Of a stretch of 64,000 nucleotides of DNA, positions 54,026 to 62,379 are shown piece after piece; the first letter of the stretch is position 1; each line of letters starts with the position of its first letter. The stretch comes from an uncultured Sphingorhabdus sp. (GTDB taxonomy: Bacteria; Pseudomonadota; Alphaproteobacteria; Sphingomonadales; Sphingomonadaceae), in the NCBI GenBank assembly GCA_947492905.1, contig CANLOL010000001.1, positions 186,001 through 250,000 of the forward strand. Direction: 5' to 3'. The notes under the pieces are model-generated. The model ran no database searches and was not told the DNA's origin. It saw nothing but the letters and a program-made list of their open reading frames with translations. Made by a program: the position numbers and the translations under genes.

Positions 54026-54253
54026 ATGTACAACCGAATCGCTTTATTCAGAACCGAAGCTGGATTATCACGCAAAGACCTTGCAGAGGCGGTCGATGTT
54101 AACCCGCAGACCATCGGCTATTTGGAACGGGGCGATTATAAACCGAGCTTAGAATTGGCTATGAAAATCGCTGCGCAATTTGATGTGCCGATTGAATTGA
54201 TATTTTCTTTCACCCCGTTTGAGAGCGTCGCCGATGCGCTGCGTAGGAGTTAG
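54026..54253 (+). CDS. XRE-family HTH regulator (YozG-like size)
   Basis: 75 residues. The N-terminal helix-turn-helix reads GLSRKDLAEAVDVNPQTIGY with LERGDYKPSLELAMKIA behind it. No sensor domain. It resembles the small XRE regulators that are paired with small membrane proteins in other bacteria, and it precedes three such genes here. Probable autorepressor acting at the palindrome. Confidence 0.9.
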   Translation: MYNRIALFRTEAGLSRKDLAEAVDVNPQTIGYLERGDYKPSLELAMKIAAQFDVPIELIFSFTPFESVADALRRS

Positions 54254-54254
54254 T

Positions 54255-54773
54255 ATGAGTATTTTAAAACCTACATCCGAGGAAAATCGAAAAAAACAAA
54301 AAGAAGTTGCGTCTCGCAAACGCATCCCCATCTTACGATGGATACAAATGTTTCTCGCTATCACTGCTGTTTTATCTGTAATTGCTATGATTATATTTGC
54401 GGATGATATAATGGATCTCAGTTGGCAGAACTGGTTTGATCGCTCTTTTCCTGCAATTGCATTATTTTGTATGTCGGCTGTCACTCCAATGTCTAGAGGT
54501 TTCATGTCTTTTGGTTTACACTATCCTCATTATGATGAATTTGAGGTGGCTACCCTAAACCAATCACGCCATATCAGCTTGTGGATCATCATCGCCCTCA
54601 CATGGCTATTATGTCTGTGGTGCGGCCTTGGTACGGCTTATAAATTTGTACATCCGCAAACGACCCTAGATTGGTTGAGCATTGGTACAGTGTTACTAAT
54701 TTTGACACCCATGTTGCCTTATATCATCGCCGAATGGATAACCCTCCTTCCACCAGAAGGAGACAAAGCATGA
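54255..54773 (+). CDS. Four-TM membrane protein, paralogue 1 of 3
   Basis: 172 residues, family unnamed. About four membrane helices; between helices 2 and 3 a conserved HYDEFEVATLNQSRHIS segment. Ends IAEWITLLPPEGDKA. AGGAG at 54245-54249 precedes ATG 54255, 1 base after the XRE stop. The C-terminal PPEGD codons contain the ribosome-binding site of the next gene. Confidence 0.82.
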   Translation: MSILKPTSEENRKKQKEVASRKRIPILRWIQMFLAITAVLSVIAMIIFADDIMDLSWQNWFDRSFPAIALFCMSAVTPMSRGFMSFGLHYPHYDEFEVATLNQSRHISLWIIIALTWLLCLWCGLGTAYKFVHPQTTLDWLSIGTVLLILTPMLPYIIAEWITLLPPEGDKA

Positions 54774-55276
54774 GCTTCCTTGATCCACTCCCCGAAACGC
54801 ACAAAGAGAATATGCAAGAGATTGCATGGCGTCCACGTAATAAATATGTGAAATGGAGCATGTTATTTGCGATCATAGCTACTGGTATCATAACATCTAT
54901 AAATGCTGTTAATTCAGACCAATCCATTAGCATATTTCAAATTATCGTAATGCCATTTTCAATCATGTTGGTGAACTGCATGATATCACCATTTTCGCGC
55001 GGCATGTTCTTAGGAATGTTCATCAATCCCCATTATGATGAGTGTGAAATCGCGGCGCTTAACCGAGCAAGGCACATCAGCCTATGGATTATAAATGGCT
55101 TGGCCATCTCGCTCTGCGCTTGGTGTTATTTTGGCGCGGTCATTGATATTCCTCATCCCATCACAGTGCGCAATTGGATAAGTGTGGCTATGTTCTTTCT
55201 GGTCATTCCTCCATTATTGCCAGCCGTGATCGCCGAATGGATAATCCCCCTTCCACCAGAAGGAGACGAAAAATGA
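54770..55276 (+). CDS. Four-TM membrane protein, paralogue 2 of 3
   Basis: 168 residues, aligning throughout with paralogue 1: SRGMFLGMF, NPHYDECEIAALNRARHIS, WII and IAEWIIPLPPEGDEK. Starts at ATG 54770 overlapping the previous stop by 4 bases; AAGGAG (54757-54762) lies in the PPEGD codons of paralogue 1. Coupled translation. Confidence 0.82.
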   Translation: MSFLDPLPETHKENMQEIAWRPRNKYVKWSMLFAIIATGIITSINAVNSDQSISIFQIIVMPFSIMLVNCMISPFSRGMFLGMFINPHYDECEIAALNRARHISLWIINGLAISLCAWCYFGAVIDIPHPITVRNWISVAMFFLVIPPLLPAVIAEWIIPLPPEGDEK

Positions 55277-55767
55277 ACGGACAAAATATGAACGATGGGC
55301 CTCCAGAATATATCCAACCATTAAGAAAGCGTAGCCAAATTCACCGCTGGTTGTTTTTAATCAGCTTCATCTTTTTAGCTTTTGGTTTTTATATAACCAT
55401 GACAAATCAATCTATCAGTAGGCTAATTACTATATTTCTCGCTCTTTCACCGGCATTTTACGCTATGATTCGCAGTCCTTTTGCACGTAGTATTTATTTT
55501 GGAGTTATCGATGAAGATGATTATGACGAGTTTGAAATTAGATTCTTACATCGTTCGACCAAGATTGCTTATTGCTTCTTACTAATCACTATGATGGTCT
55601 TCAGCATATGGATGTGGATAGGCACATCAACATCAAATGTTGTTATTCCCAATACATCTGACCATTGGAAATTCATAATCTACGCTATTTCATTTATTGG
55701 TAGTATGTTACCTGTTGCAATCGCTGAATGGACCATTCCATTTCCACCAGAAGGTGACGAAGAATGA
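55273..55767 (+). CDS. Four-TM membrane protein, paralogue 3 of 3
   Basis: 164 residues, more diverged: RSIYFGVIDEDDYDEFEIRFLH and AEWTIPFPPEGDEE. Four membrane helices. ATG 55273 overlaps the previous stop by 4 bases, with AGGAG in the preceding PPEGD codons. The tail again has AAGGTG followed by ATGA leading into a remnant. Confidence 0.82.
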   Translation: MNGQNMNDGPPEYIQPLRKRSQIHRWLFLISFIFLAFGFYITMTNQSISRLITIFLALSPAFYAMIRSPFARSIYFGVIDEDDYDEFEIRFLHRSTKIAYCFLLITMMVFSIWMWIGTSTSNVVIPNTSDHWKFIIYAISFIGSMLPVAIAEWTIPFPPEGDEE

Positions 55768-57397: not shown

Positions 57398-58912
57398 CTA
57401 TCCCAGCAGCTTTTCTTTCTTGATCTTTTCTTGCCATACAAGCGGCGCAAGATGATGGACGCTATCGCCATTGCTATCAACGGCAACGGTGACGGGCATA
57501 TCTTCAACCTCAAATTCGTAAATCGCTTCCATACCCAAATCTTCAAAGCCAACGACTTTGCTGCCTTTAATCGCACGGCTGACCAAATAAGCGCTTCCGC
57601 CCACTGCCATTAAATAAGCACTGCCATGTTTCTTAATCGCCTCAATCGCCATAGGGCCGCGCTCGGCCTTGCCCACCATAGCAAGCAGCCCCTCGTCCAG
57701 CATCATATCGGTAAATTTGTCCATGCGCGTAGCGGTCGTTGGACCAGCCGGCCCGACCACTTCTTCGCCAACAGGATCAACAGGGCCAACATAATAAATG
57801 ACGCGGTCTTTGAACTGCACGGGCAATTCTTCGCCTTTATCGAGCATATCCTTAATCCGTTTATGCGCAGCATCGCGCCCCGTCAGCATTTTACCATTAA
57901 GCAAAATTCGATCGCCATGTTTCCATGTCTTCACTTCGGCATCGTCTAGCTTATCCAGATAAACACGCTTAGCTTCTGATGATGGTTTCCACTGCACATC
58001 GGGCCATTCGGATAATTTGGGTTGCTCTAAATAGCTTGGCCCGCTGCCATCCAAATCAAAATGCGCATGGCGCGTTGCCGCGCAATTGGGAATCATCGCC
58101 ACAGGTTTGGATGCGGCATGGGTTGGATAATCCATGATTTTAACATCCAATATCGTTGATAGGCCGCCAAGCCCCTGCGCCCCAATACCCAGCGCATTGA
58201 CCTTATCGAACAATTCAATCCGCAATTCTTCTATATCGGTTTTTGCACCGCGCTGTTTCAGCTGCGCCATATCGATACTGCCCATCAGCGATTCTTTCGC
58301 CATTACCATCGCTTTTTCGGCAGTGCCGCCAATACCAATGCCCAGCATCCCCGGCGGGCACCAACCAGCGCCCATTTGCGGGATCATCTCTAATACCCAA
58401 TCAACAATATTATCGGATGGATTCATCATCTTAAATTTTGATTTATTCTCGCTGCCGCCGCCCTTGGCCGCGACATCGAAACGCACGCTTTTACCGGGAA
58501 CCATATCAATATGAATCACCGATGGCGTATTGTCTTTGGTGTTGCGGCGCGTAAATGCTGGATCGGCCAAAATGGAAGCCCGCAATTTATTCTCTGGGTG
58601 CAAATAGGCACGGCGCACACCTTCATCGACCACCTCTTGCAAACTCATATCCGATTCGAGCACGCAATCTTGGCCCCATTTCACAATCACGGTCACAATG
58701 CCTGTATCTTGGCAAATAGGGCGATGCCCCTCTGCGCACATGCGGCTGTTGGTCAAAATTTGCGCAATCGCATCTTTGGCGGCGGGGGATTGTTCCGCTT
58801 TATAGGCCTCCCCAAGCGCGCGAATATAATCCATCGGGTGATAATAGCTGATGAATTGCAGGCTATCCGCCACGCTCTCAATAACATCGGCTTCTTTAAT
58901 GATGGTCGGCAT
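57398..58912 (-). CDS. Fumarate hydratase class I (4Fe-4S)
   Basis: 504 residues. Interconverts fumarate and malate in the TCA cycle. Cluster Cys in PICQDTGIV, GAGWCPPGMLG and IPNCAATRH. ENKSKFKMMNP and GPTTATRMDKF are the usual other blocks. Single-chain class I form. Confidence 0.94.
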   Translation of the reverse strand: MPTIIKEADVIESVADSLQFISYYHPMDYIRALGEAYKAEQSPAAKDAIAQILTNSRMCAEGHRPICQDTGIVTVIVKWGQDCVLESDMSLQEVVDEGVRRAYLHPENKLRASILADPAFTRRNTKDNTPSVIHIDMVPGKSVRFDVAAKGGGSENKSKFKMMNPSDNIVDWVLEMIPQMGAGWCPPGMLGIGIGGTAEKAMVMAKESLMGSIDMAQLKQRGAKTDIEELRIELFDKVNALGIGAQGLGGLSTILDVKIMDYPTHAASKPVAMIPNCAATRHAHFDLDGSGPSYLEQPKLSEWPDVQWKPSSEAKRVYLDKLDDAEVKTWKHGDRILLNGKMLTGRDAAHKRIKDMLDKGEELPVQFKDRVIYYVGPVDPVGEEVVGPAGPTTATRMDKFTDMMLDEGLLAMVGKAERGPMAIEAIKKHGSAYLMAVGGSAYLVSRAIKGSKVVGFEDLGMEAIYEFEVEDMPVTVAVDSNGDSVHHLAPLVWQEKIKKEKLLG

Positions 58913-59071
58913 AATGTGCTCCGTTGTGCAGGATTAAATTTTAGGATTTTCATTCTGCAATAATTTGCAGACGAAAGCACGAATTATTGAACATAAATTC
59001 AGAATCATTTTCCAATAATTAATGTTAGCATTCAAAAAAGAATCACTAAGATTGGATTCTCAATGAAATTT

Positions 59072-59307
59072 TTGTGCATAACTTCGGGATAAAAAAAATC
59101 GGGAAAAATTGAGTTTTACCCTTGAAAAATGCTCTAACGCCAGAACATAGGCGAGTCCTTGCTTTAATCACTATTATGTAGTGCGATGAAGAGAATCGTA
59201 GATAAGACGAGTTGAGTCAGGTTTTTAGCGGAAAATCGCATTTACCCTCTTGCGTACGAGTCAAAATAAGCCACAATAGTTTTAGTTGGCCGAAGGGACA
59301 TACCCAG
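59072..59307. repeat. Long direct repeat upstream of nrdA, copy 1
   Basis: About 236 bases matching copy 2 at 59579-59816, offset 507. Opens with TTGTGCATAACTTCGGGATA and ends near GGCC-GA-GGG-CATACC. Highly similar in the first 40 and last 120 bases, diverged in the middle. Bounds are approximate. Confidence 0.8.
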
Positions 59308-59346
59308 TGGTTAATACTGTCGTTACCGAGTCCAACAGTCGGCAGT

Positions 59347-59431
59347 GGAGAAGAGAACAGCTGTGATCTGTCTCAAAAGGTATCAAGGCCCCTTCCAGAA
59401 GGGCCTAGATCTTGCAGCTAATCTCTTCTCC
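59347..59431. other. Long imperfect hairpin between the direct repeats
   Basis: Arms 59347-59363 (GGAGAAGAGAACAGCTG) and 59415-59431 pair at 15 of 17 positions; inside are a 5-bp GATCT/AGATC helix and a 6-bp AGGCCC/GGGCCT hairpin with a 9-base loop. No T-run follows, so not a terminator. A structured RNA or a DNA recombination/regulatory site. Confidence 0.55.
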
Positions 59432-59578
59432 ATCTTTATCGCAATTACGATATTCGTAATATGCACACATATAGGATTTATCCAATATGATTTTTCTCAA
59501 TTCATCGTTTTTATATATCGTTGTGTGATTTTTCACACTCGGTAAAAGCATCATCGTTATTCATCCACAGCCAAAAAA

Positions 59579-59816
59579 TTGTGCATAACTTCGGGATAAA
59601 AAAAATCGCAAAAAATTTTATTTACCCCTTGCAAAATGCCGCGCACTTAGAGCTTCCACGCGTCGCTTACCATTACGCCCTAAAGTGGTGCGGTGAAGCG
59701 AATCGTGCATAAGACGAGTCGAGTCCTATTTTTAGGGTTAATGTGCATTTACCCTCTTGCGTTAAATTTAAAATAAGCCACTATAGATAGCGGTTGGCCG
59801 ATGGGGGCATACCACA
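59579..59816. repeat. Long direct repeat upstream of nrdA, copy 2
   Basis: About 238 bases, same order of elements as copy 1: DnaA-box-like TGTGCATAA, an A-rich tract, TTTACCC, AATCG-ATAAGACGAGT-GAGTC, CATTTACCCTCTTGCGT, AAAATAAGCCAC and CATACC. It also has a near-DnaA-box CGTGCATAA at 59704-59712. Confidence 0.8.
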
Positions 59817-60072
59817 GATAGTATGGTTGATTTTTAACCGCAATTCCGCGGACACGCTCTTTTGCGCTAAATTAATTAGATTTAATGCTATTTTTTACCC
59901 CCTGCGATCAACTAAAAATGCTATGAGGGAAGTATTAAGCCCTGAGTCGAGTGAACAATTTTTGCGTATCAGCTTTATAAGCGGCTGACATTATACAGCA
60001 TTGCACCGACACATAGTATTACAGATGAGTGCATTCAGATGAGTGTAATACAGGCCAGTTTGGCTGGCACAT

Positions 60073-62091
60073 ATGAGAAATAATTTTGGGGCCGAGAATA
60101 TTATGGATTTTAGAGACACAGACCAAGGTACAATCGACATGTTGGATAACGATGTTACAGAAAAAGCAAATGCGAAAGAAGCTGTTGATGAATCCAAAGC
60201 AGCTGAATCCCAAAAAATTGATTCGCCCAACAGCGACAGCAAAACTGTAAACCCACAGCGTTTCAATGTTCAAAAAGACGATAGCCGTGATGATCTGCTA
60301 ACCGAATTTGGCAAAGAAACACTGACCGATCGTTATTTATTACCGGGTGAGAGCTATCAAGATTTATTCGCTCGCGTTGCCGATGCTTATGCGGATGATG
60401 CACAGCATGCACAGCGCCTTTATGATTATATTTCGAAACTATGGTTCATGCCCGCAACGCCCGTTCTTTCAAACGGCGGTACAGGACGCGGATTGCCCAT
60501 CTCATGCTATTTGAACAGCGTCGATGACAGCCTTGGCGGTATCGTCAACACATGGAATGAAAATGTATGGCTCGCATCGCGCGGCGGCGGCATTGGCACC
60601 TATTGGGGCAGCGTGCGCGGCATTGGCGAGCCTGTTGGTCTGAATGGCAAAACATCGGGTATCATCCCCTTTGTTCGCGTGATGGATTCGCTCACCCTCG
60701 CCATTTCACAAGGGTCATTGCGCCGTGGTAGCGCCGCTTGCTATCTCGACATTCATCACCCTGAGATTGAAGAATTTCTCGAAATTCGCAAACCATCGGG
60801 CGATTTCAACCGTAAAGCGCTTAACCTGCATCATGGCGTATTGCTATCCGATGAATTTATGGAAGCGGTGCGATCTGGCAGCGAATTTGATCTAAAATCA
60901 CCCAAAACCGGTGAAGTGCGCGGCCAAGTCGATGCACGTAGCCTGTTCCAGAAATTGGTAGAAACACGCCTAGCAACGGGCGAACCTTACATCATCTTCT
61001 CTGACACGGTGAACCGCAACATGCCAAAACATCACCGCGATGTTGGCCTGAAAGTTTCCACATCCAATCTATGCAGTGAAATCACCCTTCCCACTGGGTT
61101 CGACCATCTGGGCGAAGACCGTACCGCCGTATGCTGCCTATCCTCGCTCAATATTGAGAAATGGGATGAATGGAATGGCGAGAAACAATTTATCGAAGAT
61201 GTGATGCGGATGCTCGATAATGTTCTGCAAGACTTTATCGACCGCGCACCCGATGAGATGAAACGCGCGCGTTACAGCGCAATGCGCGAGCGCAGCGTTG
61301 GTCTTGGTGTGATGGGTTATCACAGCTTCCTCCAAGCGCGCGGCCTAGGTTTTGAAAGCGCGATGGCGAAAAGCTGGAATATGAAAATATTCAAACATAT
61401 CCGCGCGCAAGCCGATGAAGCATCGATGATGCTGGCCAAAGAGCGCGGCCCATGCCCCGATGCTGCTGACCAAGGCGCGATGGAGCGTTTCAGCTGTAAA
61501 ATGGCGATTGCGCCAACTGCATCTATTTCGATCATTTGCGGCGGTACTTCGGCCTGTATTGAGCCTGTGCCAGCCAATATTTACACACACAAAACCCTGT
61601 CGGGCAGCTTTATCGTTAAGAACCCGCATCTGGAAAAAATCCTGCGCGAGAAATCAAAAGACAGCAATAATGTATGGAATAGCATTCTTGAAAAAGGCGG
61701 CAGCGTACAGCATCTTGATTTCCTCTCGCCCGAGGAAAAAGACAGCTTCAAAACCAGCTTTGAAATTGACCAACGTTGGTTGATTGAATTGGCGGCAGAC
61801 CGTGCGCCCTATATTGACCAAGCGCAGAGCCTCAACCTATTTATCCCTGCGGATGTAGAGAAATGGGATCTATTGATGCTGCATTTCCGCGCATGGGAAC
61901 TTGGCGTGAAATCGCTATATTATCTGCGTTCTAAATCCATCCAACGCGCTGGATTCGCGGGCAGCGATGAAATGGGCGATGGCAGCGATAATGGCAGCGG
62001 TGTCGAAGGCGACAATACGCTCGACCCGAAAAAGGTTGAGCTAATGACCGCCGAAACCACCGATTATGATGAATGTTTATCGTGTCAATAG
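60073..62091 (+). CDS. nrdA: Ribonucleotide reductase class Ia, alpha subunit
   Basis: 672 residues (start ATG 60073; ATG 60103, MDFRDTDQ, is an alternative). Reduces ribonucleotides to dNTPs. Redox/active-site residues: ISCYLNSV, STSNLCSEI, APTASISIICGG and the C-terminal CLSC thiol pair. Shorter than E. coli NrdA (761): the N-terminal ATP-cone that senses dATP is absent and replaced by a ~70-residue charged leader. A small membrane-protein gene separates it from nrdB. Confidence 0.93.
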   Translation: MRNNFGAENIMDFRDTDQGTIDMLDNDVTEKANAKEAVDESKAAESQKIDSPNSDSKTVNPQRFNVQKDDSRDDLLTEFGKETLTDRYLLPGESYQDLFARVADAYADDAQHAQRLYDYISKLWFMPATPVLSNGGTGRGLPISCYLNSVDDSLGGIVNTWNENVWLASRGGGIGTYWGSVRGIGEPVGLNGKTSGIIPFVRVMDSLTLAISQGSLRRGSAACYLDIHHPEIEEFLEIRKPSGDFNRKALNLHHGVLLSDEFMEAVRSGSEFDLKSPKTGEVRGQVDARSLFQKLVETRLATGEPYIIFSDTVNRNMPKHHRDVGLKVSTSNLCSEITLPTGFDHLGEDRTAVCCLSSLNIEKWDEWNGEKQFIEDVMRMLDNVLQDFIDRAPDEMKRARYSAMRERSVGLGVMGYHSFLQARGLGFESAMAKSWNMKIFKHIRAQADEASMMLAKERGPCPDAADQGAMERFSCKMAIAPTASISIICGGTSACIEPVPANIYTHKTLSGSFIVKNPHLEKILREKSKDSNNVWNSILEKGGSVQHLDFLSPEEKDSFKTSFEIDQRWLIELAADRAPYIDQAQSLNLFIPADVEKWDLLMLHFRAWELGVKSLYYLRSKSIQRAGFAGSDEMGDGSDNGSGVEGDNTLDPKKVELMTAETTDYDECLSCQ

Positions 62092-62100
62092 AAGCAACCA

Positions 62101-62379
62101 ATGGTTCACTGGAGTGTTTACATCGGTTTAGTGATAATCTGGTTAACTCTTGGTTACTATGCAATCAGCATTATACGAACGCCATATGAAAAAAGATGGG
62201 ATAAATTTGTAAGTTATGACGGAAAAGATGAAAAACCAGATTTTGATTCATCAAAATGGTCGCACCGCATTAATGTTTGGTGGCTTAAATTTTGGTCTTA
62301 TTGGGTCTTAATTTTATTAACAATTGGCACTGTTATCACACTGTTATTAACGATTGGGGTTCTTAAACCCATCGAATAA
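62101..62379 (+). CDS. Two-TM small membrane protein between nrdA and nrdB
   Basis: 92 residues, not recognised. Membrane helices at about 5-25 and 64-88 flank a charged loop (YEKRWDKFVSYDGKDEKPD). Starts 9 bases after nrdA and ends 26 before nrdB, so it is probably cotranscribed. AT-richer than nrdA and nrdB by eye. No clear ribosome-binding site ahead of the ATG. Confidence 0.7.
   Translation: MVHWSVYIGLVIIWLTLGYYAISIIRTPYEKRWDKFVSYDGKDEKPDFDSSKWSHRINVWWLKFWSYWVLILLTIGTVITLLLTIGVLKPIE

Follow-up and report, generated by a model that had tools for sequence, protein, structure and literature searches.

DnaA regulates nrdAB in Escherichia coli, and excerpts of PMC8203912 propose that it does likewise in Caulobacter. 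Among the genes listed for the latter, nrdA is a member of the DnaA regulon, is lowered in a ccrM mutant, retains its GANTC in five of five species and is placed outside the GcrA regulon (PMC3973325, of which Table 1 is drawn on here); PMC3667746 makes no mention of 'nrd'. NrdR adds a second layer. Its published binding sites are 16-bp palindromes, commonly separated by a spacer of 15–16 bp and overlapping the polymerase site, and it binds them with dATP plus ATP (excerpts of PMC12176259, PMC12051234 and PMC9110341). The NrdR boxes of E. coli have a central AT in all cases but one, according to PMC12176259.

The control region described here lies upstream of nrdA in a 64,000-nt stretch, the window, which spans positions 186001–250000 of contig C1 in a Sphingorhabdus-type genome of 2.59 Mb. 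Its control sites are of known kinds, but their combination is new; a family-level architecture of this sort, with NrdR-like boxes, GANTC and LexA sites, was not found described in the open-access literature searched. On one side the region is flanked by a fumarase gene (57398–58912, minus strand), and on the other by nrdA, for the large subunit of class I ribonucleotide reductase (60073–62091, plus strand). The longest open reading frame of nrdA begins at 60073, 30 nt upstream of the start that is conserved in the genus (MDFRDT..., at about 60103). Between the two genes are two direct repeats, copy 1 (59072–59307) and copy 2 (59579–59816), offset by 507 nt with an internal shift of 1 nt. They have diverged to 71% identity over 236 aligned columns, and their opening 30 bases are identical. 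The motif TTTACCC starts at 59115, 59241, 59621, 59748 and 59894. An earlier, sequence-only reading of this DNA had described the two repeats, the TTTACCC pairs 126–127 bases apart and the fifth copy at 59894, and all of these are present in the sequence as it said. Two observations on the neighborhood, made by eye from the list of open reading frames, may be recorded in passing: the nrdA–nrdB interval holds, on the same strand, a gene for a small hydrophobic, probably membrane, protein (62101–62379), and at 54026–55767 an HTH-regulator-like frame is followed by three similar, tandem, membrane-protein-like frames ending ...PPEGD.

We consider it quite likely, from the comparisons set out below, that copy 2 is the orthologous Sphingorhabdus nrdA control region—a promoter, P1, with probable NrdR boxes, with GANTC and in some lineages DnaA-like sites upstream of it, and a probable second promoter, P2—and that copy 1 is an extra. 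The core of copy 2 was matched in 38 of 44 other genomes of the genus (23 of 24 in a first set, 15 of 20 further ones), and in none of 16 genomes from other families of the order. The first search covered 41 genomes—the window's own, the 24 other genus members and these 16—and the second set gave matches in 19 of 25, of which 5 repeat the first set. Six of the 44 had no core match at the thresholds used, two of them being 99–100% complete. Within the genome collection 30 stretches contain the exact core, ACWATAGRTAGCGGTTGGYC; their titles name Sphingorhabdus or unassigned Sphingomonadales/Sphingomonadaceae and, in one case, Sphingopyxis. Because nrdA follows the core in 29 of the 30, 232–366 bases on, and the thirtieth is a piece without nrdA but with fumarase, copy 2 is taken as an orthologous nrdA control block. 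When the block of a relative was used to search the family, 13 of 149 genomes matched, 3 of them of the genus. An extra, weak match to the core (23 bases, E 0.0017) falls in L084, at a site without nrdA.

Wider comparisons drew on 142 loci with nrdA, from which 47 near-duplicates were dropped to leave 95 non-redundant regions, 38 from the genus and 57 from other genera, with the genus name resting on record titles and, for regions from the 30 stretches with the exact core, membership counted by core match and title. All 38 genus regions were found by similarity to the nrdA control region or its core, and conservation of the core among them is therefore partly ascertained. Four of the 57 (L088, L089, L092 and L093) were likewise found by similarity alone, and the rest came by way of the nrdA protein from 59 family genomes. 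Protein hits were obtained in 58 genomes, of which three with broken or cut genes (G067, G070 and G094) were left out; one fetched piece (L141) gave no nrdA match. Alignment of the window with these related upstream regions shows the core to be conserved, and the earlier proposal of a doubled control region for nrdA, and hence for dNTP supply, has stood up well. A dispersed or mobile element, with copies at unrelated loci, was the outcome that the sequence-only reading had named as counting against its interpretation. This candidate was rejected: the copies lie in one place of their own genome, and there is no match to a plasmid or phage.

P1 of copy 2 would be the main promoter of nrdA. Its probable –35, CTTGCG at 59756–59761, lies together with a conserved flank in TTTACCCTCTTGCG (59748–59761; this and the other features of the region are on the plus strand unless noted). 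When 25 regions are aligned, TTTACCC..CTTGCG and, after it, CACTATAG.TAGCGGTTGGCC...GGGGGCA prove almost invariant. A scan with the sigma-70 consensus did not flag P1, and by the anchor rule P1 is absent from 27 of the 57 other-genus regions. Across the 2.59-Mb genome TTTACCCTCTTGCG has two exact matches, both of them in these repeats, and four with one mismatch (a reversed control pattern gave three in all). TTWACC stands at –40 to –20 of the first of the NrdR-like boxes in 35 of 38 genus regions and in 14 of 30 anchored regions from other genera. Since the two exact matches are both here, and TTWACC is fixed near that box, TTTACCC is, by its placement, the flank of the probable nrdA –35 and no separate regulon motif. 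The sequence-only reading had thought a new element possible; the motif is real, but its separateness has not survived the comparison.

What that reading left out is the strongest conservation of all, which lies just downstream. The invariant part beyond the –35 is probably a pair of NrdR boxes. Putative box 1, CACTATAGATAGCG (59779–59792), picked out both by conservation and by a matrix, overlaps the –10-like part of P1, CACTATAG in the alignment; putative box 2, TACCACAGATAGTA (59810–59823), starts 31 bp after it, although a 33-bp register scores nearly as well. Other genera have, at the place of box 1, sequences such as CACTATAGGTTGTG or CACTATAGGTAGTG, and a second loose palindrome, for example CCCAAGAGATAGTG, 32 bases further on. 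Of the 38 genus regions, 33 have a loose CAC-N8-GTG-like pair at 32 bp, where shuffling gives 3.1; of the 57 others, 26 have one, where shuffling gives 8.2. Among the other genera 32 comes top of the 30 spacings tested, but 29 to 34 are all raised; within the genus further spacings are also high (29, 33/38; 35, 28/38), on account of the looseness of the rule and the relatedness of the regions. A matrix made from 30 regions of other genera scores 59779 above every other site of the 64 kb, and the pair that begins there above every other pair, with the caveat that columns 1–6 of box 1 were fixed by the picking rule and that box 2 carries little information. The start-to-start distance of 31 in the window agrees with the 31–32 by which such pairs were to be recognized. 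Both window boxes have a central AG and keep CAC; box 1 ends in GCG in the genus, and in GTG in many other genera. The genome has an nrdR gene, which reaches its family cut-off.

The DNA upstream of P1 has GANTC sites at fixed positions and GCGACGAA repeats, joined in some lineages by DnaA-like boxes; by analogy with Caulobacter, these may tie activation of nrdA to the cell cycle. A GANTC site lies precisely at –69 from box 1 in 33 of the 38 genus regions and in 11 of the 30 anchored others, and in the latter its middle base varies (A7 G3 T1). The window's counterpart by alignment, GAATC at 59700–59704, has come to lie at –79 through a 10-base insertion, and further sites follow at 59716 and 59721; altogether there are 12 in 58990–60072, compared with 1.8 per kb across the window. 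A conserved GANTC with a free N, situated in a promoter, is the pattern looked for in promoters controlled by CcrM and GcrA, and this one displays it. A gcrA gene is present and reaches its family cut-off. So is a homologue of CcrM, which combines methylase and RAMA domains and matches solved CcrM (6pbd) at 5e-156; its best NCBIfam match is CcrM, at 601 bits, which is below the 830 cut-off of that model, a Caulobacter one. GCGTCGC (59660–59666), conserved in the alignment, is the inverse of the GCGACGAA repeats of relatives. These repeats are found in 32 of 38 genus regions, where shuffles give 1.0, and in 9 of 57 regions from other genera, where shuffles give 1.3. CtrA-like TTAACCAT is present in 11 of 38 and 5 of 57, respectively (0.8 and 0.7 in shuffles). 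The upstream TTTACCCCTTGC motif of copy 2 (59621–59632), seen in the sequence and in the alignment, corresponds to a TTTTCCATCTTGCG-like site that many relatives have about 118 bp before the main one. We note also that at 59660–59725, and at the equivalent places in relatives, GCGTCGC and GCGACGAA-type repeats stand 22 bp apart, beside GANTC.

Downstream of P1 the alignment reveals TGCTATGAG (59919–59927), the extended –10 of a probable second promoter, P2. Beyond it come GAGTC, a GANTC site (59944–59948) of the kind that abuts a LexA box in relatives, and what looks like the remnant of that box, GAAC-N7-GCGT (59953–59967), where relatives have GAAC-N7-GAAC. Their layout, about 170–217 nt past box 1, consists of TGNTA as an extended –10, followed by a short stem and by a GANTC that is fused to GANTCGAAC-N7-GAAC. 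We take GAAC-N7-GAAC to be the alphaproteobacterial LexA motif (a GTTC/GAAC-N7 direct repeat). The genus has it in 34 of its 38 regions, and other genera in 31 of 57; shuffles give 0.3 and 0.9. GANTC abuts it in all 34 genus sites and in 23 of 30 sites from other genera, where its N is G12 A5 T5 C1, and TGNTA comes before all 34 of the joined sites in the genus (2.7 expected) and before 17 of the 23 in other genera (1.6 expected). The four genus regions without the LexA box are those of the window, L002, L003 and L004; between 58900 and 60100 of the window there is no GAAC-N7-GAAC, either exact or with one mismatch. The genome's own lexA has GTTC-N7-GTTC just upstream, and its LexA scores above the family cut-off. 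In most relatives within the genus the GANTC–LexA composite at P2 would serve damage induction; in the clade of the window the LexA half of it is decayed. No nrdA under LexA was found in the consulted portions of two papers on LexA (PMC6472365 and PMC4211646).

The DnaA-like boxes suggest a different emphasis: an nrdA promoter mainly under DnaA control, as in E. coli, with the duplicated boxes as the chief regulatory feature. The box-like TTATGCACA lies on the minus strand of each copy, and TGTGCATAA at these two places, 59073–59081 and 59580–59588, provides the sole matches to TTATNCACA in the 64 kb. About two matches per 64 kb are expected (0.034 per kb, the rate in an 800-kb sample of this genome), so the count is within chance, and the notable thing about the boxes is their placement, in the 30-bp block that is identical in both copies. 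A near box with one mismatch, TCATCCACA, is located at 59561–59569, just before copy 2. At the place of the copy 2 box the two nearest relatives also have a strict box, and it is these two and the window that make up the 3 of 38 genus regions in which a strict TTATNCACA falls between –330 and –100 relative to box 1, the count in other genera being 0 of 30. With up to one mismatch allowed, TTATCCACA is found there in 11 of the 38 genus regions (shuffles gave 1.6) and in 5 of the 30 others (shuffles gave 0.8), and in 15 of the 16 the site falls between –177 and –218. The dnaA gene itself reaches its family cut-off. Together with the E. coli precedent, and the proposal for Caulobacter (PMC8203912, in excerpt), this makes DnaA control of nrdA plausible in those lineages that have boxes. 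As the main form of control it fares less well: no such site appears within that interval in 27 of the 38 genus regions or in 25 of the 30 anchored ones from other genera; of the 11 genus regions with near boxes, 7 have the very same sites, a pattern to be expected of a single clade; and conservation of the promoter part reaches much further than that of the boxes. The DnaA idea of the sequence-only reading has thus gained partial support, strict boxes being retained in the window and its two nearest relatives and most regions being without boxes; that DnaA is the principal regulator we regard as possible, while leaning against it. The same reading had also suggested an origin-like site. The boxes do lie in a stretch of 39% GC, as against 45% for the window, but the locus is at 245 kb of contig C1, 235–295 kb from the minimum of the cumulative GC skew (480–540 kb, with the maximum near 1.9 Mb, from 40 sampled 20-kb stretches); dnaA is at 852 kb; and conservation is centered on the promoter. 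We attach next to no weight to a replication origin or an origin-like DnaA site here. The dnaA gene, for its part, is roughly 310–370 kb from the sampled skew minimum, and so apparently off the origin.

A structured leader RNA or riboswitch before nrdA would offer another account of the conservation, which does run beyond the probable start, and stems of at least 5 precede the LexA box in 13 of 34 and 15 of 23 cases, a modest excess over the 9.1 and 7.1 of shuffles. But Rfam has no match at gathering score, and four at chance level (E 1.2–4.8); the interval between P1 and P2 is the less conserved part, and the most highly conserved piece is consistent with a pair of operators. We think a leader RNA improbable, and prefer the control region outlined above, with its probable NrdR boxes at P1. 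More evenly poised is the matter of copy 1, which could be simply a decaying duplicate without a role. It is so far known from the window's genome alone. What it retains is the DnaA-like 30-mer, an upstream TTTACCCTTG motif (59115–59124), GANTC sites (59193–59218, GAATC at 59193 and GAGTC at 59214) and, at 59241–59254, TTTACCCTCTTGCG, the –35 side of a promoter-like site. Downstream of this, box 1 has decayed to CACAATAGTTTTAG (59272–59285; matrix score 4.0, against 16.6 at 59779), and the NrdR-like half-sites are lost. A second CTTGCG-N15-19-CACWATAG core occurs in one of 38 genus regions, the window: in these regions of about 900 bases, the window has two, L083 none by the strict pattern, and the other 36 one each. 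Used as query, copy 1 matched 4 of 44 other genus genomes, each at its single orthologous block; this is a weak test of absence, because the known block was missed in most of the other genomes. Its solitary occurrence, the length of its branch (0.47; copy 2, 0.03) and the departed NrdR-like boxes all point to a relic. Yet columns conserved in the genus have changed less than others (75/94 kept versus 93/144, P = 0.013), the –35 part is kept at 19 of 19 such columns compared with 22 of 32 for the NrdR part (P = 0.008, the split being chosen post hoc), and the opening 30 bp are identical, although recent duplication or gene conversion could partly explain this. On the timing of the duplication the informative sites are divided, 7 (with the copies together), 8 and 4, and support is 70. 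We put the chance of a mere relic at a little short of even. Copy 1 leads into about 270 bases that hold a strong hairpin (59345–59432; z = –5.55 for 59340–59440 against mononucleotide shuffles). It has no second copy in this genome, and is possibly a small RNA, a terminator or an inserted palindrome.

To judge by what it has kept and lost, copy 1 looks like the activator side of the control region without the repressor side. If it is not a decaying duplicate, it would be an NrdR-blind module, contributing further expression or providing sites for activators. Taking the family as a whole, one can imagine that nrdA of Sphingomonadaceae has two promoters, one of them NrdR-repressed and the other a fusion of CcrM site and LexA box, in which methylation after the fork gates the damage-induced supply of dNTPs, and that the lineage of the window has dropped the LexA arm and gained an NrdR-blind DnaA/GANTC module. 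We offer this as a speculation, and one that is unlikely to be right in every part. The identities of the proteins that bind, and the direction in which they regulate, we infer from sequences, positions, conservation, enrichment and the presence of regulator genes. Unless we are mistaken about these, the nrdA region brings together on one gene signals that tend to be investigated separately: dNTP level (by way of NrdR), methylation in the cell cycle, and DNA damage (by way of LexA). The analysis names the bases to mutate. The fixed GANTC with its free middle base, and the GANTC–LexA junction, lead directly to the prediction that dNTP supply is gated by methylation across a large family of bacteria, and the lone duplicate, whose losses fall mainly in the NrdR part, is a natural promoter experiment.

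Set beside the systems with which we began, the locus shows a mixture of the familiar and the novel. With Caulobacter crescentus nrdA it shares a conserved upstream GANTC and a link to DnaA (PMC3973325, Table 1), but GANTC has a fixed position in Sphingomonadaceae, at –69, and, in addition, abuts a LexA box at the second promoter, a junction not found in those parts of the Caulobacter nrdA literature that were examined. Like alphaproteobacterial LexA operators, the genus regions have an exact GAAC-N7-GAAC (34 of 38) and the genome's own lexA has GTTC-N7-GTTC; unlike them, the box is decayed in the window's clade. As in NrdR-regulated ribonucleotide reductase promoters, a pair of loose palindromes, spaced by about three turns of the helix, would overlap a –10-like part before nrdA, and the genome has a gene for NrdR; the window differs in its central AG in place of AT, in the fixed TTTACCC–CTTGCG flank and in the probable second promoter downstream. 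Like the E. coli nrdAB promoter, finally, it has DnaA boxes and NrdR boxes at the promoter, both putative in the window, and it departs from that promoter in its duplicated block and GANTC sites and, in its relatives, in the LexA box.
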